DNA of 21,448 nucleotides, taken from positions 266,256 through 287,703 of the forward strand of contig NW_003120425.1 of the NCBI RefSeq assembly GCF_000003605.2, read 5' to 3'. Below the pieces are notes generated by a model. That model was not told the origin of the DNA, did not search any database, and worked only from the letters and a program-made list of their open reading frames with translations. Positions 6,205 through 17,984 of this stretch are shown here, piece by piece (position 1 is the first letter of the stretch; each line of letters starts with the position of its first letter). The DNA is from Saccoglossus kowalevskii (taxonomy: Eukaryota; Hemichordata; Enteropneusta; Harrimaniidae). The position numbers and the translations under genes are program-made.

Positions 6205-9200
6205 CTGTAAAAAAAAATAAAAAAATAAAAAAATAGTGTTCCAGTGAGGTATTCCGTTGCACGTATTAACACTAACAGTTAACACACATTTTGAAAAAGA
6301 ACATATTAATTATTTAAAAAAACATATCAAAGTATGTTCCTCTTTTTTATTAGTTAACGTTATACAGCATGACCGCGCAAAACGATGGAAATTGCTATTA
6401 TGTTCTAAACTCTACGTTAATATCTTTGTGGACAATCGCAGTTTTAACAATATGTTCTTATATGTGCCGCCTTGACTTTAGAGCTTTGCCACAGGTGTAA
6501 CGTACAAAAAAGGGCCGATCAAATTATCATGAAAAGTAAAAAGTAATCATATGCCTAATTTCAAGGCTCTACATATGTAATGCAAAGGATAATTTAGCTA
6601 TGAAATGTGATATATAATTTTCCATTCAATAAATATTCTATTACAAATGATTTATAAAACATTAATCGGTGATTTTCTGTAAGAGTTATATAAATATTCT
6701 ATCCACTAAAAGACGGTTGGTATATTTTGACAGTGTGTCGTGCTCATTTGTAGCATTGTATCAAACAGGTGTTAGCTTTGACGTAGGACTGCTGAATTAT
6801 TTAACACTTCTGGTATTTAATAACAAAACACAATAAAACAACCTGGATGCTGTTTTCATCTTTAGAATGACAACCCCTACATAGCGTGAAAATTTCAAAT
6901 CTAATGGATGCAATCGGACGAGCTATTTTAGTTTGAAGGGCATAAAAATATGAATATCCAGAACGTAGATAATTTCAAACATACAATATTATGTATACCA
7001 CAGTCTTTTTGATATTTTAAAGTCATTTTACCTGGTATGTACCATCGAAGGTGAAAGGTAAGTTGTATGAGGGTAAAATGTCTGTCCTCGTAATTGCTGT
7101 TGTTCTCGTCGCTGGTTCAGTCGTAAAACTTTTATTTGTATTTATAGTACTTCAAAATTGCCATATATTAACCAGTTTGGGATTTTGGTCGAGTTCGATT
7201 GTGATACATGTTCTATGTAGGTTTGTCTTCAAGATATTGATTAAATTTCACAAACCTGTATCTTAATCTATATCTTAAATGAGCAAATAGTATTATATTG
7301 TAATGACAAAGAAAAAACTCAATATTGAAATTACCATATCTATAGAATAAATAAATCTCACCTTCCAGGGACCATCCAGCTGTCTCCAAACTCATATATA
7401 TCATCTTTAGTCAGAGTAACTCCATCAGATTTCATAAAGTCATCCTCAGGATCACCATTAGCGTTTCCCAGTAGACCACAGACATTGCCTCGCATATTAG
7501 AACCATTCAAAGCTATATTGATACCATGGGTAGGTTTAGTCCAAACTAAAGATAGAGCAGGGTTATTTAGTTGTACGTACACGTGCTCATCTTTTACTTT
7601 TACAGTTCCTTGTCCATTACCAATTACAGCAGATGCATTGGTGAAGAGATGCCCTTTTATCTACAGTATAAAAAGTAAGAAATACTAATATTTTTTTCTG
7701 AATGTATGTACCACATAAAACCTGTTCTTGTACCTGATACATCATTCAAAAAATAACATTCATTTAATGTTAGCATTATTGTATCAGTGGCATTTAGGTA
7801 AAGGCCTATTCAATTCAGACACAAGTGTTGACTAGTTTTCCAATGCCAGACAAGAAAGGAGGGGCCTAAGAAATAATCAAGCAAACGTTCGCCCTATAAC
7901 AAACTCAACTCAAATACTCACGCAACATACAATGCCCGAAATGGTTAAACACATTTACATCATTCACCCAAATTTTGGCATTGACATTAATGGCATCAAG
8001 ACAGGCAACTACCAAACGAATGTACAACGACTTACAAGAAAATGATCATTCTTGAGTATTCGTAGTAACTGCATTCCATCAACATTAACATCAACAGCAT
8101 TAATACGAGTTAGTGGTTTTGAACGTAACTCAGAATATTTCCCTCGGAAATCAGCAGTCACTTGAAATGATGGTCTGTGAATGTTACGACAATCCTGGGT
8201 GAGAATATATGTACACAGACCCTGGAAGTTGTATCTTACGCCATCAAAAGTTGTCATGTGAGGATCCTGTTCGGTAATAGCTGTAAGAACAACACATCGT
8301 TGACAATTTGTTTGCTGTTGTTGAATGTGATATGTCATACACACAGTCAGTGACGAACACAGTCAGTGACGAACACGTAGTTAGTGGCGCAAACTGTCAG
8401 TGCTTAACGTATACAAACACATAGACAAATTATTGCATCTTTTAGGAGCTCAACATGTTCAAATATTTACCTGCCATTCAATGGTGTGGAAAAAATATAT
8501 TGTTTGCCATACTCGAACAAAAATACCACCAAGTTTTGTCATTTTATTTGTCCGACAATTGTGCGAATACATTGTATACACTATATATACATTGTATACA
8601 TTATATATGAATAAATCAGGTATATCTTACCTGTTGGCGTTGGACCTATAGTAGGAAAAGAAAGTGTAAAGTGTATTATTATGCAAAATATGCATATATA
8701 CGCATATGCGTAGATCTCAGTCTATTTTTGTAGGAATATACTTTAAAAGTATTTTGAAATGAAAGTTTTTTGTAATTTTCAACTGAAACAAAATAAAAAA
8801 AAACTTCGGTAGTGATATATTCACTACCCTTTAAGCATTTATTTGATTTCCACGCTATATAAAGATCGTACAAGAGTTATAAAACAAGTAAAACTGCAGA
8901 TCTATATTTCTATTGACTATCTACAACATTTAGTTCTTTCACTTCTATTTCTTTTAAGTAAAAGTACTTTGATCACATAAGAATTCTCACGATAGTGTCA
9001 CCATTATGGCTGCATATCAAATACATAAGAAGCAATAAATATCATATAAAAACATGCAATTCTGGTTTTGACAACCGAATAAAAAATGTGTTACTTATTG
9101 GAGGAGGAGTGGTACCTGTTTTAAAATAAAAAGAACTACAAATTTAACATTATTATTTGCGAAATATTAAATCAGTGTGTCAGATTTAATGACTGGGACA

Positions 9201-12200
9201 ATGGTTGAAGTACACATAGATCTGTTCTGTGCAGGTAAATCCATTACTGTTTCATATGTATTTGTGATTAAAATCTAGTTATATTAGAAGGATCATATAA
9301 ACAAAATATTACAGGTTGTGTATGATGTTTAGTTATAGTCACAAAACACTATAACACATGACGCATAGAGTCAGTAACAACCACTGGTGGTGCTGTATAA
9401 CTTCAAACATTTTAGTGGCTCGCAAAGGTTGACATGTCAAGGATATAGGCATCGACGCACGCACGCACGCACGGACGCTCAGACATACGGACAGAGGTCA
9501 ATCCACAAATTCAAAATATTCAAACATGTACATGCCGTGCAATGGTGTTAAATAAACACACATACATATTGTATGAGGTACTCGAAAACAATTCCACATA
9601 TCAAGTTTTGTCATTTATTTATCCGACAATGGTGCGAATACACTGTATACACTGTATATACATTGTATACACTATATATGAATAAATCAGGTATATCTTA
9701 CCTGTTGGCGTTGAGCCTATAGTAGGAAAAGAAAGTGTAAAGTTTATTATTATGCAAAATATGCATATATACGTATATGCGAAGATCTCAGTCTATTTTT
9801 TTAAGAACATACTTTGAAAGTATTTTGAAATTAACGTTTTTTCTAATTTTCAACTGAAACAACAAAATAAAAATTTAGTACTGATATATATTCACTACCC
9901 TTTACGCATTTGTTTGATATCTACGCTATATAAAGATCGTACAAAAGTTATAAAACAAGTAAAACTGCAGATCTATATTTCTGTTGACCACTGCAAGATT
10001 TAGTTTCTTCACTTCCATTTCTTTGAAGTAAAAGTACTTTAATGACATGAAAACATTCTCACGATAGTGTCACCGTTCTTGCTGCATATGAAATACCGTC
10101 AGAATCAGTACATTCATTGCCACATACTTTTTTTTATAAATGATACATTTTGAGTTTGTACGCTGTGAATTATAGTTATTTTAACAGTTGACATTGAGTT
10201 CACATGCGATTCACAAATTTGGTGAATCGTGAACTCTTTGTAGTGGACTATGTTATATGCAGGTTATCCCACTATTTATGGTTTAATTAATTGCAATAAG
10301 ATACAAACTGTGGTTTCCCTTGTAATCAAATGTAGATCTTTCTCAAAATCCAAAATATTTGTTCCTGACGAAGGATAGTCTCTACTGCAAATTTCATGAA
10401 CATTCGTCACAAACTTGGATGGGAGTTCAAACTTCGCACACCATCATTTCTACAACCGAAATCAATGAAGTGCAATATATTATTTCTTTACTTATTATTT
10501 TTTTTCACTAATTTTCATATAACAGGTTTATTGTATAAAAAATAAATTCATATTATTGACTCGCATTGATGGATTTTCATGTTGTTGAAACATGTATGTT
10601 TCATTATAAATCAACAATACTCTTGTTATCTTAGAAAGCTATCATATTGCTAATGTGTATGTTCTGTAAAACTAGTTACACTAATTCAATAGTCAAACCA
10701 ATACAATGGTGTACATTTAGAATGTTGAACGGGTAATAACAGAATTTACACTTGTAATCGCTGCCTGGTCACCTCTTGTAAATCGATTGGAACTGAACAT
10801 CAAAGATGCACAAATTCCATATAAAAACATACAATTCTGGTTTTGAAACCTGAATAGAAAATGTGTTACTTACTGGGAGTGGGAGGAGAAGGAGTGGTAC
10901 CTGTTTGAAAATAAAAAAAAATACAAATTTAACATTATTATTTGCAGCACATTAAATCAGTGTGTCAAACTTAATGGGACAATGACGCAAATACACATAT
11001 ATCTGTTCTGTGCAGGTAAATCAATTACTGTTTCATATGTATTTGTGATTGAAATCTAGTTATACTAGGAGCCTAATATTCGTAAAATATTTCAGGTTGT
11101 GTATTATGTTTAGTTATAGTTACAAACCACTATAACACATGACGCATAGAGTCAGTAACATCCACTGGCGGCGCTGTATAATTTCAATTTTTTTAGTGGC
11201 TCGCAAAGGTAGGCATGTATATAGGTTTCGACGTACGCACACGGACGGGGACTAATAATGTACTGGAGAAGACGAACATGCACATAACTCGGTCGGGTTC
11301 ATTTTTGAAAGACACTGTGCCATAAATTGTAAGTGAAAAGCAGAGCCCTTGATATGTGAATGAAAAGCACATATGTTTCGATACTTTGCAACAACCCATT
11401 GCATATGTTTATTTTTAGACTGCTGATACAGCCACTGGATTGTGTTGTCAGCAGAATTTGACATACATGCATCCAGTCTCCCCCAGTGGCATAATGGTGT
11501 TTCCCAGACAGTGGCGTGGTGATTGTGAACTTGGAATGTACTAAGCCCAGCGTTGTTGGCAATGAAAATAGGTATGACATAATTGACCCGACTCTCCTAC
11601 TTTTTATATTGGTAGAGCTCGGATAAACAGTGGTTTATTCCACTACCAAAATTGTCATCTACTTTACTCTAATTTGTCCGCTATTTCGAGATAACCAATC
11701 GTTTCGTTGAATACATTTTATTGTTTCCATGGCCATAATTTAGTTGTAGCGTTTAAGTTGAAACATGTGGAATAATCTTAAGTCAGGAAGGTGACCTGAC
11801 TTGATCCTATAACATCCTGTGATGCTGATTCCTGACTCCAGTGAGCTGTACCCTATACAGGGGTACATGTGCAGACGTGCTGTGCACTAATCCCTGCTGA
11901 TCAAGAGAAACCACTGACGCTCACTGTTCGTTGTACCGGCGGTACTGGTAGCAGCATATAGCAGTACAGTTGCCGATACTCCCTGGACATATAGCACGAG
12001 TTTAAATTGTAGTGCAGCTGTTTCGACAGTGTGCCAGAAACGATAAGTCCTAAGTTTTATTTGTTTAATGTATATCCCCATTCCTTGCTGGTTCCAGTGA
12101 CTAGCACGCCATACTACTTATTTATTAAAGTGAAGGGAGACGATTTATAAAATAAGCATGCTGTCAGAGACGTCTATTATTAGACCTGTATGAAAATATG

Positions 12201-15200
12201 CTCCCAGCTCCTGAATACAAAGTATACCCATAAAGGCCCCTCCCCGCATTTTACATCACAATACCATCAATGTCGAAGCCGAATGATTGTATTATATTTT
12301 TTCTTCTATGACATTGAAATTGCATTATTTTTCCATGATCTCAATTTCTGATAATTGATCTCAACTTGTTGGTAGTTTCAAAGTTTAAACCAGCACGGGT
12401 ATTATTTTGTTAGAAGTCATTTTGGCTAGCAACGTGACCGAATGTTTCGTGGTCGAGAAGAACGGGATGGCAAATGATGGACGAAACTTTGTTCACCAGA
12501 AAATGGATAGATGGCATGGACATCGTGCAATTGAGTACGCCCTCCTACTATAGCCCAAACGTTAGCCTCGTCGGGTAATTTGTTCAAAATGAAAAAAAAA
12601 TATTTCGCTTCGTAACTGCTTGTTTTCGTTGTCAATGTGTGATCGAGTGTACATGACCATGATATATAATAATTGCTCATCTCTTCGGGCTATTCATACT
12701 GGGGATATTATTCCAAGACTGCTGTGTCGGCATGTTTGTCGTAAATACGAGCGAAATCCATAGTCATGCAGCGCACATTCGCATTCCGTGCAAATAAACA
12801 TTTGAATGCATTTACGCGAGTTGCTTTATCGCATAAGGGTCCTCGTAAAACACGACCTGTCGTAACGACCACGGTACCGCTCTTTTTATGTATTTACAAA
12901 ATACATAGAACATCTACTTTCTACTCATAACAGGCTAAAATTGTGCGACTGAATAAATATTAAACAAATTTGACTAATTTGAAAACAATTCAATTTGTCT
13001 GAATCGAGAAGCGGTTTTAGTGGAAGAGCGATTCCACTAAATTGAGTACAATATATATTTATTAACTGCAACTAAGTCATATATAAACATTGGTCCCTTT
13101 GATATTACATTTATTCAGTTGGTACAGCTCCTCTTGAATAACTGTCACATCGGGGAAAGCAATCTTTATATACCCTGAGTGTTATAGGACATTATTCAAG
13201 TTACCTTGACGCGTCCAAATGAAATAAGTCGTTTCGTGGTGAAGCTTGTTTTAAAATTATATATTTCCGAGGTTTATTAATCATCATTTTGATGATTTCC
13301 AGTAAAAATCTATTTTGCGTGGTTTGAAAAGCTTTCTAAAACTATGTCATAACCAATTGAGCAAACAATTAACTGCCAATGAGATGAATGCCTGTACCCA
13401 ACAATCATTTTGCCGAATAGAGTTTTGATTAAATATTAGCGAACGAAAGATGACACTGTCGCCGATATAATTTATATTGGTGGTCTTGTAATAATACTTA
13501 CATTTGTTCACAATAACAGACTGCATGAGTGCATTGGAAACATCCCATTGTCTATAATATATGATATAATATTTCGTTGGGTCATATACGCTACGAAATG
13601 CACTTAAACCATTTGACGTGGGTCCTCCTCCAATTCCTTTACTTAAGCTACCTGGGGCTGCTGCTGGGTATTCAAGAATTTCATATTTTACTGTGACAGT
13701 CGATCCAAGGTCCTTCGCTAAGACCACTTCTATGGTGCCATTTTGACATGTGTTCCAGTCTGCACCAAGTGTAAAGTTACCTGCAATTCAAATGATATCC
13801 AAGATATGGTGTATATGAATACTACTAAATACCGGTTTATTATTTCTCTAAATGCACGATTGTGAATATTCAATGTGACGGCAAAAGTCGTGTAACTGTT
13901 GATTTTTATATTCGTGGAATCGGTAGCTCATATAGCAGAAATGTTACAAGAATACATAAATGTTAATGGCTAGATCATCAGGAAAGGTTTAAGTGACCGC
14001 GTCCGGTTTAACTTTGCTATCTTGTCAGCTATCTTGGAATGGAGAAAAATGTTCGAAATGTTTCGAATCAAAATCTATAAGTTGACAAGATTAATTATTT
14101 CCGATATTTGGCTGATGTGAGAAAAGTTGCAGAAAAAGAAGAAAAAACAATTTAGTCTCAAATCCAAACATCACTCAATTAACCCAGACAAGTCATTTTA
14201 GGGTACAAATATGATGATCCGCACCAATTAGACAGCTGGACAATACCATCGATATAAAATTACTACTAAAATGTGAAACATCGTGTAACAACATGTTGAC
14301 TCACTCACAAACGATTCTTAATGCATATTATGAAGCATACTAGTTTTTATTGATGGAAAATGCCAGAGTATGTATTAACAAAAGTACGAGCTAGACAGCA
14401 ACGAAATAAATATACATTCAGGAAAGAGCTGTTAATAGAAAATAGAAAAGACATATAAAATACCGTGTGAAACTTGCACTCATCAAACTCTACCTGTCAC
14501 ATTTGTGATTTCAAATGGTCGATGTCGAATATTTCTATTGAAAGGGGTTTTATTTATGCACGGACATAAGTAGACACTTTTTCGCCGTCACCATGGAAAT
14601 CATACGTTGTGCACCTGGGACATCTTCTTTAAGTTTGTCATCTGCAAATTTTATTGCAACGAATTTTTCGAACAACAATTATTTGATTGGGTCATACTGT
14701 TTATTCGGGCAATAACAGGTTTATTAGTCACCATGTACAATCTTTCATTTTTCGTATGGCAATTTACATCTTAGTAGCTTAGTGTGGCCATGGTATCGAA
14801 TGAGTTTGTTGGACAGTTTCTCAGACCGTCCACACGACTGTTATACTTAATAATTATATTCATGTAATTCATATTATAATGCTGCCAGATATTTCTTATT
14901 TAATTAATTATTGTTTACTTTTCCACTAACTAAATTAAGCCCATGTATTGCACTTTGCAGGATATTTCCAACTACCATGCTGTTATATTTAGTTTAGTGA
15001 ATATTTTACATGGAGTAATGTTTGTGTTTATATTTAATTAGTGCCACACATTAGATATCCAAGCTAACACAAAGCAGTATTAAAATGTGTGTCTAAATGC
15101 CCACATATTATATATTGCTCTTTCTGCATACATGTCTCATATAGACTACATGAACTATACATTATATTAGGGTGCACAACTACAAATATTTTGGCTTCAA

Positions 15201-16591
15201 CCAAATATCTGTATCCAGATAATAACAGTTGTCATTCTAACTTTGAATGCGAAATACAGAAATCACCATCGTCTCACAACAAAATTCAAGGTGTCTATCC
15301 GGGGATAAAGAAGCCATTATTTTTTTATCGTATGAGTAGCTTAATCTTCTTATTCAATCATATATGTGCACTTTGGTTTATTGTCATCAGTGGCATTATC
15401 AAAATTTTTTTTATCAGGGGGGAATGATATTTAGTAACTTGAAATCATGAAAAACGCCATGTTAATGTATAGCTGAAACCCGCACCATGATTCCTTCGTA
15501 GAACATAAACATAGTATTCCCAGTAATATATTGAAAAAAAATACGTGTTTCAGAACATGCTATGTCAAATTTTAATAAACATTCTTTCTTTCTTCCTTCT
15601 AATAGTATCATATAAACACAAGTGCATATAATTAATACAATTGAAAGTAGTCAGGATTATAAGTAGTACTACAAGTAGTGATGACGTCAATTATTATATA
15701 TAACTTATGGGCTAAATTTTCATGTTTGCTGTTGACTTATTAGAAAAGGCATGTATGGCATAATCATCAAAACCAAACTGAAGAATACATGCAACAATGA
15801 AGATACACAAGGGACAACCATGAGACTGCTACCAGCAAATATGTTTTACAACTTGGAACCCTTAATGCTCCTTTCAGCTATATATTCAAATGATCTGGGT
15901 AATGTTGAACGAAAACAAAAAAATGAGTACTGACTTGTTTGTGTTGTTTGTTGTACCCTATTACTGATATCACTTGTCACACCAGGATAAACTGCTTGTA
16001 CAGAGATTAGGTCATATAATGTGCCAGGGTTCAAATTTGTCAATTGATAAGTTGTCCCTGTTCCTGGGAGATTTATGGATTCGTGCTTTCCAGATGCAGA
16101 TTCATAATAGTTAAGAATATAACTGTCAGCTCTATTTGACGCAGTCCAAGAAAGAGATATTGTAGTGTCCGTAAACCCTGTAACTTGTAAACCAGTTGGT
16201 GCTGGTGCGGCTGTAAAACAAATTATTGTTGGAATCATTCAATCATTTTTATTGTTCATATCATCTGTGATACAATTATTGTTTAATGTAAAGAACAATG
16301 AGTACAAATATCAGTACTTACATGTTGTTTGTTGTACCTCATTACTGATATCACTTGTCGCATCAGGATAAACTGCTTGTACAGAGATTTGTTCATAGTA
16401 TGTGCCAGGGTTCAAATTTGTCAATTGATTAGTTGTCCCTGTTCCTGGGAGATTTATTGAATGGTGGATTCCAGATCCGGATTCATAATAGTTAAGGATA
16501 TAACTATTTGCTCCAGGGGTTCCAGTCCAAGAAAGTGATATTTTAGTGTCCGTATACCCTGTAACTTTTAAACCAGTTGGTGCTTGTGCAG
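6195..16591 (-). CDS. Multi-exon secreted FN3-FN3-(unknown domain)-Pro/Thr linker-vWD protein, 5' end missing
   Basis: Ten exons are read on the minus strand: 16591-16322, 16210-15935, 13780-13502, 10900-10874, 9716-9702, 9115-9095, 8645-8631, 8280-8036, 7660-7362 and 6204-6195. Acceptors are AG. Donors are mostly GTAAGT, GTAAGA or GTGAGA; two are weaker (GTCAGT after the second FN3, GTAACA after the 21-nt exon). Phases agree at every junction (1,1,1,1,1,1,1,0,2), and the sum is one open frame of about 485 residues plus stop. Rough residue ranges are FN3 1-90, FN3 91-182, an unrecognised domain 183-275, a Pro/Thr linker 276-301 and vWD 302-485. FN3 and vWD are known extracellular modules, so a secreted or matrix protein is inferred. 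No start codon or signal peptide was found, so the N terminus lies upstream. Function and orthology are unknown. The exon pairing is strong; inclusion of the 21-nt micro-exon and the final 10-nt exon is less certain without transcript data. Confidence 0.85.
6205..7361 (-). other. Intron between the vWD exon and the terminal exon
   Basis: The donor is GTGAGA and the acceptor TTTACAG. A run of A/T blocks (A-rich on plus, 6207-6233) forms the polypyrimidine tract. I looked for C8 or TIL-like cysteine-rich exons on the minus strand and found none. An open plus-strand ORF at 7051-7266 overlaps it and is considered spurious. Confidence 0.6.
7362..7660 (-). CDS. Exon: von Willebrand factor type D domain, C-terminal half
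   Basis: The acceptor is TATACTGTAG and the donor GTGAGA. The exon is 299 nt, starting in phase 0 and ending in phase 2. The peptide starts [14 protein letters not shown] and includes [14 protein letters not shown], then [17 protein letters not shown] and finally [11 protein letters not shown]. The GNxNGxxxDDF signature is the conserved vWD loop that binds calcium in related D assemblies, and FGDSW is the usual end of the domain. Most vWD domains read CGLCGN here; this one reads CGLLGN, so the second Cys is missing, matching the missing Cys before DPH in the previous exon. Sequons NAS and NGS are present. The intron between the two halves is 375 bp. Confidence 0.93.
8036..8280 (-). CDS. Exon: von Willebrand factor type D domain, N-terminal half
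   Basis: The acceptor is TTGTTCTTACAG and the donor GTAAGT after CATTTTCTT. The exon is 245 nt, entering in phase 1 and leaving in phase 0. The peptide begins [20 protein letters not shown] and continues [11 protein letters not shown], the classic vWD opening (DPH, TFDG, the F-x-G-x-C-x-Y strand, then a second Cys). The rest is beta-strand-like ([20 protein letters not shown]). The Cys that usually precedes the GDPH motif is absent: the position before ITEQ is Ala at the exon junction, and the CVVLT that can be read further upstream lies in the intron. vWD domains mediate extracellular assembly and binding; no partner can be inferred here. Confidence 0.93.
8341..8406. repeat. 16-bp direct tandem repeat beside the vWD exon
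   Basis: ACACAGTCAGTGACGA occurs twice without a mismatch (8341-8356, 8357-8372), followed by two degraded copies (ACACGTAGTTAGTGGCG and CAAACTGTCAGTGC). It lies in the intron 61 bp upstream, in transcript sense, of the first vWD exon. Confidence 0.85.
8631..8645 (-). CDS. 15-nt micro-exon, Pro/Thr linker (beta copy 1)
   Basis: The minus strand reads CTACTATAG, then GTCCAACGCCAACAG, then GTAAGA. The 15-nt exon is phase 1-1 and encodes PTPT; its last G joins CT of the vWD exon to form Ala. It is the last linker exon before the vWD domain and a close copy of 9702-9716. The four micro-exons together would give about 26 residues of Pro/Thr/Ser linker, and any of them can be skipped without a frameshift. 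Confidence 0.75.
9095..9115 (-). CDS. 21-nt micro-exon with shifted donor, Pro/Thr linker (alpha copy 1), possibly skipped
   Basis: The acceptor (AAAACAG before GTACC) is conserved with the 27-nt copy at 10874-10900. At the position of the ancestral donor this copy reads ATAAGT instead of GTAAGT, so that site is dead. A GT four bases further on (AA, then GTAACA) would give a 21-nt exon in phase 1-1 encoding TTPPPI. Using the old boundary would give 17 nt and break the frame. Either the new donor is used or the exon is skipped; both outcomes keep the downstream vWD frame. Confidence 0.45.
   Translation of the reverse strand, partial: VPLLLQ
9451..9475. repeat. ACGC microsatellite tract
   Basis: A short (ACGC)n run ending in ACGG lies at the right end of duplication unit 1. 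A degenerate counterpart (CGACGTACGCACACGGACGG) lies at about 11228-11248 at the end of unit 2. Confidence 0.7.
9702..9716 (-). CDS. 15-nt micro-exon, Pro/Thr linker (beta copy 2)
   Basis: The minus strand reads CTACTATAG, then a 15-nt exon, then GTAAGA. Phase is 1-1 and the exon encodes STPT plus the first base of a Gly codon. The exon and its flanks match the 8631-8645 copy closely, differing at 2 of 15 exon bases, while both splice sites are unchanged. Retention of both sites in each copy argues that the exon is used. An exon this short normally needs strong splice sites or enhancers. Confidence 0.72.
10096..10802. repeat. Indel block of about 0.7 kb between beta2 and alpha2, with a long hairpin
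   Basis: Unit 1 runs directly from CATATCAAATAC into the alpha block, whereas unit 2 has about 700 bp between the matching points. Near its left end, 10196-10236 forms a hairpin: GAGTTCAC and GATTCAC on the left pair with GTGAATC and GTGAACTC on the right, with a 4-nt bulge and a 7-nt loop. I could not see terminal inverted repeats or a target-site duplication, so a mobile origin is only possible. Confidence 0.4.
10874..10900 (-). CDS. 27-nt micro-exon, Pro/Thr linker (alpha copy 2)
   Basis: On the minus strand the exon lies between a T-rich acceptor ending CAAACAG and a consensus GTAAGT donor. It is phase 1 on both sides and encodes TTPSPPTP between two split codons, a flexible linker that could carry O-glycans. 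It lies inside the second unit of an intronic tandem duplication and is the better preserved of the two alpha copies. Joining to the preceding exon gives a Cys codon (T+GT); joining to the next micro-exon gives Ser (A+GC). Confidence 0.75.
10901..13501 (-). other. Large intron, with palindromes and a CpG-bearing patch
   Basis: This sits between the unknown-domain exon and the first linker micro-exon. It holds the alpha2 duplication tail to 11253. A palindrome cluster follows at 11780-11945: AAGTCAGG with a 7-nt loop and CCTGACTT, an imperfect 21-bp palindrome at 11847-11867, and GTACCGGCGGTAC at 11933-11945. A relatively CpG-rich patch lies at about 12420-12880, with a minus-strand ORF at 12426-12680 that matches no family I know. 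Additional small linker exons could be hidden here. Confidence 0.5.
13502..13780 (-). CDS. Exon: cysteine-bracketed domain of unknown family
   Basis: This 279-nt exon is phase 1 at both ends, with acceptor TTGAATTGCAG and donor GTAAGT after AACAAAT. The peptide opens [19 protein letters not shown] and continues with strand-like stretches ([34 protein letters not shown]). A Gly/Pro/Ala/Ser-rich loop in the middle contains [10 protein letters not shown]. One Cys lies near the start (WNTCQ). The codon split across the junction with the 27-nt micro-exon reads TGT, so a second Cys closes the domain and a disulfide between them is plausible. Sequons NFT and NGT suggest glycosylation. I do not recognise the family. 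The length and 1-1 phases match the FN3 exons, so it behaves as one shuffled module; a diverged beta-sandwich is possible. Confidence 0.82.
13781..15934 (-). other. Large intron between the second FN3 exon and the unknown-domain exon
   Basis: No further exon is recognised. A plus-strand ORF at 15089-15427 is the longest in this stretch but lacks an ATG start, domain motifs or codon bias. A TGACGTCA site (15682-15689) lies just before TATATATAA on the plus strand, noted as a weak promoter-like arrangement. Confidence 0.55.
15935..16210 (-). CDS. Exon: fibronectin type III domain (second)
   Basis: This is a 276-nt exon, phase 1 at both ends, reached through a 111-bp intron with a TTGTTTTACAG acceptor. 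The peptide begins [16 protein letters not shown] and contains the core Trp (ISLSWTA), [12 protein letters not shown] and [15 protein letters not shown], so it is a complete FN3 module. Its donor (GTCAGT) is weaker than that of the first FN3 exon (GTAAGT), although the flanking intron bases are clearly related, so the site probably drifted after duplication. Reading through would meet an in-frame stop at the far end of the 15.85-16.24 kb minus-strand ORF, so splicing here is needed. It joins the next exon as A+GT, giving Ser. Confidence 0.92.
16322..16591 (-). CDS. Exon: fibronectin type III domain (first in window)
   Basis: This 270-nt exon is phase 1 on both sides, so the whole domain can be duplicated or skipped without shifting the frame. 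The acceptor is a T-rich tract ending TTTTACAG at 16592 and the donor is GTAAGT. The peptide starts [15 protein letters not shown] and shows the FN3 hallmarks: the N-terminal APTGL strand, the core Trp in [15 protein letters not shown] in the middle, and the [15 protein letters not shown] turn and strand near the end. It has no cysteines, as usual for FN3. It is a close copy of the next exon (about 78% identical residues by eye). FN3 modules mostly act as spacers or adhesive surfaces in extracellular proteins; nothing here points to a specific ligand. The split first codon shows that at least one more coding exon lies upstream. Confidence 0.93.
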
Positions 16592-17984
16592 CTGTAAAAC
16601 AAAGTGTTAAAATTGATAGCACGTGTGAACTGTTTAAACACGATGTTTTAATCTACAAGTAAAACTGTAAGTACTTTATGTGAACAAAATAACAAATCAG
16701 ATGATAATATTCATTAATGATGTTTTTTTTTAAAAAATCCAACTCAGTAGGACACATTTTCTAAATTTGAGAAACGAATTATTATGCAAATAAATAGTAG
16801 TTGCAGGTTGGAAGGGTAAACGGGTGGTGCGCATTGGATTGGGTCGACGACCCCTGGCAAGTTAGTGAAAAGGCAAGCCAGTTAACCAATCATTCGACGG
16901 GCCGATGAGGCATTTTCATTGATTTTGATTGAAGGTATTGTTACTGAGTGCTGCCGCAATGGCTGTGTGCAACAGGTGGGAACTGTGAGAAAACATGAAT
17001 ACGTGTAATGAGATACGTTACTAATCTTCCTACTGAACTTTCACTACGTGATTATCGTGTGTGCCGAGTTTGCAATAATGATGATCGTTGGGTAATGTAA
17101 TTTATTGTATAACCGGATTTGAATAATTAGTTACCGTTTTGTGTGAGTGTTATGGAATGCAACACACTACCTAAGTCTATACTGGAATGAGTGCTGCAAT
17201 TACTGCTTGTGGGATTATCATATATGGATTAATTGCTGTTTCGTCGCTGTTGCGATTATTTGTGCTTGGGATTAACCGTTGTGTATCGCAATTGTGTCGT
17301 TATATGACGTTTGTCTTCGTCGAATATATTCTCGTATTTGAATGGTTAATCGTCACGTGTGGCCTTTGAGAGAAATCGCATTATATTGTATTGTTTCGTG
17401 TCGTCTATTCGTTATTGCATCTGATTTCTTGATAAACTGAATTTTCCGATAAATATTTTATACGATTGAATTGTATATATTATAAATCTCATTATTACAC
17501 ATGTACTGCAGCAGTTTATTTTGATTCGTCCATGAAATCAAAACCGGTATTTCCACACCTCATATGCAAATGAGGTCTGAGAGCAAACAAAGTAGTTCCT
17601 TCAGCAGTACCGTTTTTCGAAATAAACAATATTAAGAAGTACGATATTTTTCTCTTGGAGTACATGAATATACTTGCCGAGTGAAATGAAATTTGAACAA
17701 CAGTAATGGTACCTTTAGCCAGTCACTTATTTTGACTAAAACTAATTTGCATATCACCCATGCAATAATGTTTTCGGTATTTTCACGGTCGATATGCAAA
17801 TGAACATAGTATTTTCATTGGCTACCGAAAAATTTTTATTTTGTAAACACATTTTCGTCTGCTATTTTTGTCCAGTTCAAATCGTCAGGCAACATTTTTG
17901 GCGTGTTAGGTGTACGTCACATGGAATCATGATACTACGATTGGGAGAACTTAATTTATGTTTACCACCTGGAAACTGAGTTTT
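16592..17984. other. Upstream flank or 5' intron of the gene with octamer motifs
   Basis: No coding exon joins convincingly to the first FN3 exon here. ATGCAAAT or its complement occurs at 16784-16791, 17564-17571, 17745-17752 and 17794-17801. The last three extend to ATATGCAAAT, and two sit in a longer related context (CGGTATTT...CAC...ATATGCAAATGA). This is the consensus octamer for POU-domain factors. Short palindrome GGGTCGACGACCC lies at 16841-16853, and ATTGG/CCAAT occurs on both strands at 16834-16890. Confidence 0.4.

Follow-up and report, generated by a model that had tools for sequence, protein, structure and literature searches.

Predicted symmetric micro-exons, duplicated together with their introns, in a Pro/Thr/Ser spacer before a VWD domain of Saccoglossus kowalevskii

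How can the spacer between two protein domains change in length without touching the reading frame? The question is raised by a gene on the minus strand of a 21,448-nt stretch of Saccoglossus kowalevskii DNA (hereafter, the window; unprefixed positions refer to it, and those prefixed C1299 to its contig). A VWD domain is encoded there by two exons 3' of a group of micro-exons, the first at 8036..8280 (starting in phase 1, placed by PF00094 and splice sites) and the second at 7362..7660 (placed by PF00094; 92% amino acid identity to a paralogue, hereafter gene P). The two exons joined matched PF00094 at 88.6 bits (cut-off 22.9; E 7.2e-25) over profile positions 3-155 of 156, and this was the one complete VWD identified within the window. 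The best PDB match of the VWD region was FCGBP, with E 5.6e-64 summed over several domains and 51.8 bits for the best single stretch. VWD domains are very numerous in the genome, with at least 158 matches when 150 of 425 candidates were scored, and the contigs holding many of them include C2922, C889, C3574, C4504 and C3976.

On the 5' side of the linker, an exon for an unnamed domain of 93 aa (13502..13780, minus strand) ends in phase 1 at T/gtaagt (the slash marks the exon boundary; donor score 5.29). It has relatives at C1299:202600-202875 (52% amino acid identity; hereafter, the 202.6-kb copy) and, in part, at C1299:228440-228532. No Pfam family matched this domain up to E 1, a comparison with PDB sequences returned a single match at E 0.84 and none better, and a single-sequence AlphaFold model had a mean pLDDT of 48.9, too low to interpret. 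Farther upstream lie two fibronectin type III (FN3) exons (15935..16591, minus strand; splice ends by eye; PF00041 E 1.6e-9 for the upstream exon, the one scanned), which presumably belong to the same gene as the linker. The FN3 exons are themselves tandem DNA copies (15942-16227 vs 16323-16608, 88%), a further exon duplication nearby. The domain exons in the part of the gene seen are about 245-300 nt each, and none of the 19 listed frames of at least 80 aa, which cover only the known part of the gene, appeared Pro/Thr/Ser-rich by eye. The region in question would be a spacer between the unnamed domain of about 93 residues and the VWD domain, in a modular, presumably secreted protein.

Four candidate micro-exons lie between these domains on the minus strand, i.e., A1 (10874..10900; 27 nt, TTPSPPTP; acceptor 6.8, donor 3.2), B1 (9702..9716; 15 nt, STPT; acceptor 7.2, donor 7.3), A2 (9095..9115; 21 nt as drawn, TTPPPI; acceptor 5.1, donor -1.57), and B2 (8631..8645; 15 nt, PTPT; acceptor 7.2, donor 7.3). 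The initial annotation had placed all four in phase 1-1 with only Pro/Thr/Ser-type residues, between flanking junctions at 13502 and 8280; the peptides read in phase 1-1 and the splice-site scores of the junctions agree with it. Its further statement that each micro-exon has its own splice sites holds for A1, B1 and B2 and is doubtful for A2, in which the homologous donor has AT for GT and the drawn one scores -1.57. The micro-exons are presumably spliced into the mRNA, and the resulting spacer may be flexible and O-glycosylated, though "mucin-like" was a generous term for a linker of at most 26 residues, the length with all four micro-exons.

The tandem duplication that had been proposed at 8455-11253 was recovered by self-alignment, at 83-85% and with limits within about 5 bases. 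On the minus strand, 11248-10803 aligned with 9474-9027 (458 columns, 83.4%) and 10117-9511 with 9045-8450 (613 columns, 85.5%), giving a unit 1 with A1 and B1 (9511..11248) and a unit 2 with A2 and B2 (8450..9474). Unit 2 is without about 690 nt of intron (10803-10117), a segment that is kept in unit 1 and in both units of the paralogue. Genome-wide, the cassette had 16 matches, of which six were on this contig in the two genes and the other ten were only 45-74 nt long, near one unit edge. The intron before A1 also carries an interspersed repeat (11320-12255; 78 genome matches with 40 of 141 candidates scored), which was not aligned there in gene P.

To gauge how often such exons arise by chance, we scanned for exons of 9-36 nt that are open and preserve the frame, using general position weights, with thresholds (acceptor ≥4.5, donor ≥3) that were chosen after the exon scores had been seen. 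Within the window, the minus strand gave A1, B1 and B2 and nothing else, A2 failed, and the one match on the plus strand was not Pro/Thr-rich. Across 111 kb of the contig (C1299:196001-307000), all six matches on the coding strand were at least 75% Pro/Thr/Ser, three in each of the two genes, and the other strand gave one match that was not Pro/Thr/Ser-rich. Thirty first-order random sequences of 111 kb yielded 0.47 matches on average and no Pro/Thr/Ser-rich one. Relaxing the thresholds raised the number of matches in the 111 kb, with 15 on one strand and 18 on the other at the most permissive setting, but gave no extra Pro/Thr/Ser-rich ones; at the setting (2, 1), the Pro/Thr/Ser-rich calls were the six already known, with none on the other strand. 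When length and an open frame were not required, eight matches were found on the coding strand and one on the other. In the 1,560-nt upstream flanks of the best 30 of the 158 VWD matches, searched in both orientations, no call reached 75% Pro/Thr/Ser at either setting; one 12-nt exon encoding PPE was found there.

Gene P, which this contig carries on the same strand at a distance of about 50 kb, allowed the history of the spacer to be compared. Its VWD exons have 91-92% protein identity to those of this gene (dS 0.263, dN 0.034; 27 synonymous and 14 other changes), a pattern that indicates constraint on these exons. On the same strand as this gene, its linker is predicted to contain two A-type micro-exons, both homologous to A1, at C1299:226216 (18 nt, TTTPP) and C1299:224756 (21 nt, TTIPPP), followed by a B-type one at C1299:223633 (15 nt, PKPT), giving 18 residues in the order A18-A21-B15. 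Gene P has a tandem duplication of its own (C1299:226946-225481 and 225479-223992, 89.5%), which carries A only and excludes B. The unit duplicated in this gene corresponds to about 225121-223414 of P (225088-223469 with stricter scoring) and includes B, and at either end the breakpoints of the two genes' duplications are several hundred bases apart. The Jukes-Cantor (JC) distance of the introns is 0.065-0.070 within the P duplication vs 0.135-0.160 within that of this gene; judged by these distances, the P duplication is the younger. The predicted spacer thus grew by at least two separate duplications, of an A+B unit here and of an A-only unit in P. The separate and differently bounded duplication in P, together with the single A-like exon of a third gene (see below), strengthens the suggestion in the initial annotation that linker length can change by copying.

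A different order of events, in which the ancestor already had two A+B units and P lost one, would place the duplication of this gene before the gene duplication. The JC distances between the genes (0.128-0.211) overlap those within this gene, which speaks for that history, yet several stretches are common to the two units of this gene and absent in P, an observation that is not polarised; we regard this older origin as possible but somewhat doubtful. The surroundings of P also differ from those of this gene. The exon before its linker is rearranged: its upstream domain exon (C1299:228440-228537) is like that of this gene over about 31 residues only, and the next exon (C1299:228112-228398), of about 95 residues beginning TWPCGDNRK, occurs once in the genome, so that a domain swap in the upstream exons of P is possible. 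In addition, positions 56-1574 of the window match C1299:231453-232928, upstream of P, in pieces, and an open frame at 1100-1375 has 82% amino acid identity over 90 residues to DNA upstream of P; this similarity marks either a repeat or the limit of the duplicated gene region.

A distant third gene (C1299:167.6-169.2 kb) has a VWD exon with 42% identity over 77 residues to that of this gene and, above it, a stretch weakly similar to the upstream domain (26%, E 0.004). This domain stretch contains in-frame stops and may therefore be decayed or used differently. Between the two is a single 21-nt micro-exon, GCACCACCGCCACCACACCGG/gtaagt (TTATTP, phase 1-1; acceptor 3.4, donor 6.4), whose start resembles that of the A exons and which passes the looser setting (2, 1) only. 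With the strict thresholds, the third gene gave a single match, a 48-nt frame directly above its VWD exon and not the Pro/Thr exon, and no B-like exon was called. Below the 202.6-kb copy, neither a VWD nor a Pro/Thr micro-exon was found in 11.6 kb. P and the third gene may not all be intact, because of the rearranged exon in the former and the weak, stop-containing domain stretch in the latter.

The four A copies of this gene and P were also informative on the status of A2. Three of them end in CCCA/GTAAGT, whereas A2 reads CCA/ATAAGT and has no GT at the donor. With a core of 17 nt, which is not divisible by three, A2 is in frame only via a GT 4 nt downstream, which gives the 21 nt drawn; this donor (TAA/gtaaca) has the score of -1.57 given above, and the remaining six donors of the gene that were scored range from 3.2 to 7.3. 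A2 is thus probably weak or dead and not an equal member of the set, and either the shifted donor rescues it or it is skipped. We lean slightly towards the view that its donor mutated after the duplication and its frame drifted, leaving a linker of A1-B1-B2: the AT replaces a GT kept by the other three A copies, the substitute donor is poor, and skipping a symmetric exon is harmless. Its intact acceptor speaks against this loss, as does the shifted donor, which yields exactly 21 nt that are in frame (a one in three chance) and still Pro/Thr-rich. Should the gene by now skip A2, or use it weakly, the remaining three micro-exons would encode 19 residues, close to the 18 of the paralogue. One may go further and propose a birth and death of symmetric micro-exons in which the total spacer is held near 18-19 residues, with three working micro-exons per gene (A-B-B after the failure of A2, and A-A-B), but we consider this idea speculative and rather improbable.

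Two further properties bear on whether the micro-exons are used at all. The upstream domain ends in T/gtaagt in this gene, P, the 202.6-kb copy and the third gene, and the Cys codon is made whole if the next exon starts with GT or GC, as all A-type exons do and, in this gene, B1 and B2. The B exon of P starts with CT and would give no junction Cys, and a direct join of 13502 to 8280 (T/CT) would give Ser in this gene. The last Cys of the upstream domain is therefore split over the junction, which hints at micro-exon inclusion. Three domain sequences were aligned, with this last Cys added by hand to the MAFFT alignment; each contains a single further Cys, close to the start of the domain, which MAFFT put in another column for P, and a disulphide involving the junction Cys may be formed. 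As for the frame, the A exons with intact donors measure 27, 18 and 21 nt, and that of the third gene 21 nt; every one of these lengths is divisible by three, vs 8 of 60 gaps in the alignments of the flanks (the pairs overlap and are not independent), an argument that few length changes underlie.

Visible in the DNA are the duplications, their differing breakpoints, the symmetric open exons, their splice signals and the constraint on the VWD exons, and we consider it likely that the spacer is built of predicted symmetric micro-exons that were copied together with their introns and duplicated at least twice. Each micro-exon, a multiple of three in phase 1-1, would add 5-9 Pro/Thr/Ser residues. 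Given the symmetry of the micro-exons and their location in long introns, tandem duplication of intron segments, whether unequal or replication-based, would then supply extra spacer residues in frame. A and B would have been copied together here (A1-B1-A2-B2) and, later and separately, A alone in the paralogue (A-A-B). It could instead be that the supposed micro-exons are chance motifs or fossils in introns that were copied whole, and that the domain exon joins the VWD exon directly, a join that is also in phase. The scan statistics, the occupation of the same site in three genes, the length changes that keep the frame and the junction Cys all run counter to this, and we find it very improbable. 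Regulated alternative splicing that tunes linker length between tissues is a separate matter: all the exons are symmetric, the A1 donor (3.2) is weaker than the B donors (7.3), and the same has been suggested for chicken Muc13 (PMC1552070). Skipping all micro-exons would nonetheless change the junction Cys to Ser here, and such regulation seems unlikely.

Gene finders easily miss exons of 15-27 nt, and micro-exon linkers of this kind are therefore probably under-recorded. On this contig, three genes with one, three and four micro-exons form a compact natural series, which lets one trace how a disordered linker grows as entire micro-exons are copied in tandem, together with relative ages and breakpoints.

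The general principle has already been published for chicken Muc13 (PMC1552070) and, for symmetric short exons, for the micro-exon genes (MEGs) of Schistosoma mansoni (PMC10526429). The PTS domain of Muc13 is described there as several near-identical exons with one repeat each, and its authors propose that length changes by recombination and splicing (PMC1552070). Here too, a Pro/Thr/Ser stretch comes from several homologous small exons (two A and two B in this gene, two A and one B in P); in that case the stretch is the PTS domain of a transmembrane SEA mucin (PMC1552070), and here it is a short linker in front of a VWD, formed from exons of 15-27 nt. Schistosome MEGs encode secreted proteins and have long introns and very short exons, mostly multiples of three with 15 nt the commonest, of which 10-20 make up the gene (PMC10526429). 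The micro-exons of the present gene resemble these in size and symmetry, but they number four in the part seen, not 10-20, and are interspersed with ordinary domain exons. The exclusively spliced exon duplicates described in PMC9741552 are likewise tandem copies within a gene; those copies replace each other, whereas copies here can add up. The VWD domain is shared with FCGBP, VWF and gel-forming mucins, as the PDB matches show, and this gene differs from these proteins in the FN3 and unnamed domain upstream and in that no long PTS exon was noticed in the window. Among the titles listed by literature searches, none concerned this gene or a VWD linker made of micro-exons.

Separately, the mitochondrial contig of the assembly (C4830) reads well with AGR = Ser and AAA = Lys, a code that would suit a non-echinoderm deuterostome such as a hemichordate or lancelet, and COX1 (C4830:13355-14941) is on one strand and the other long mitochondrial frames recognised on the other.
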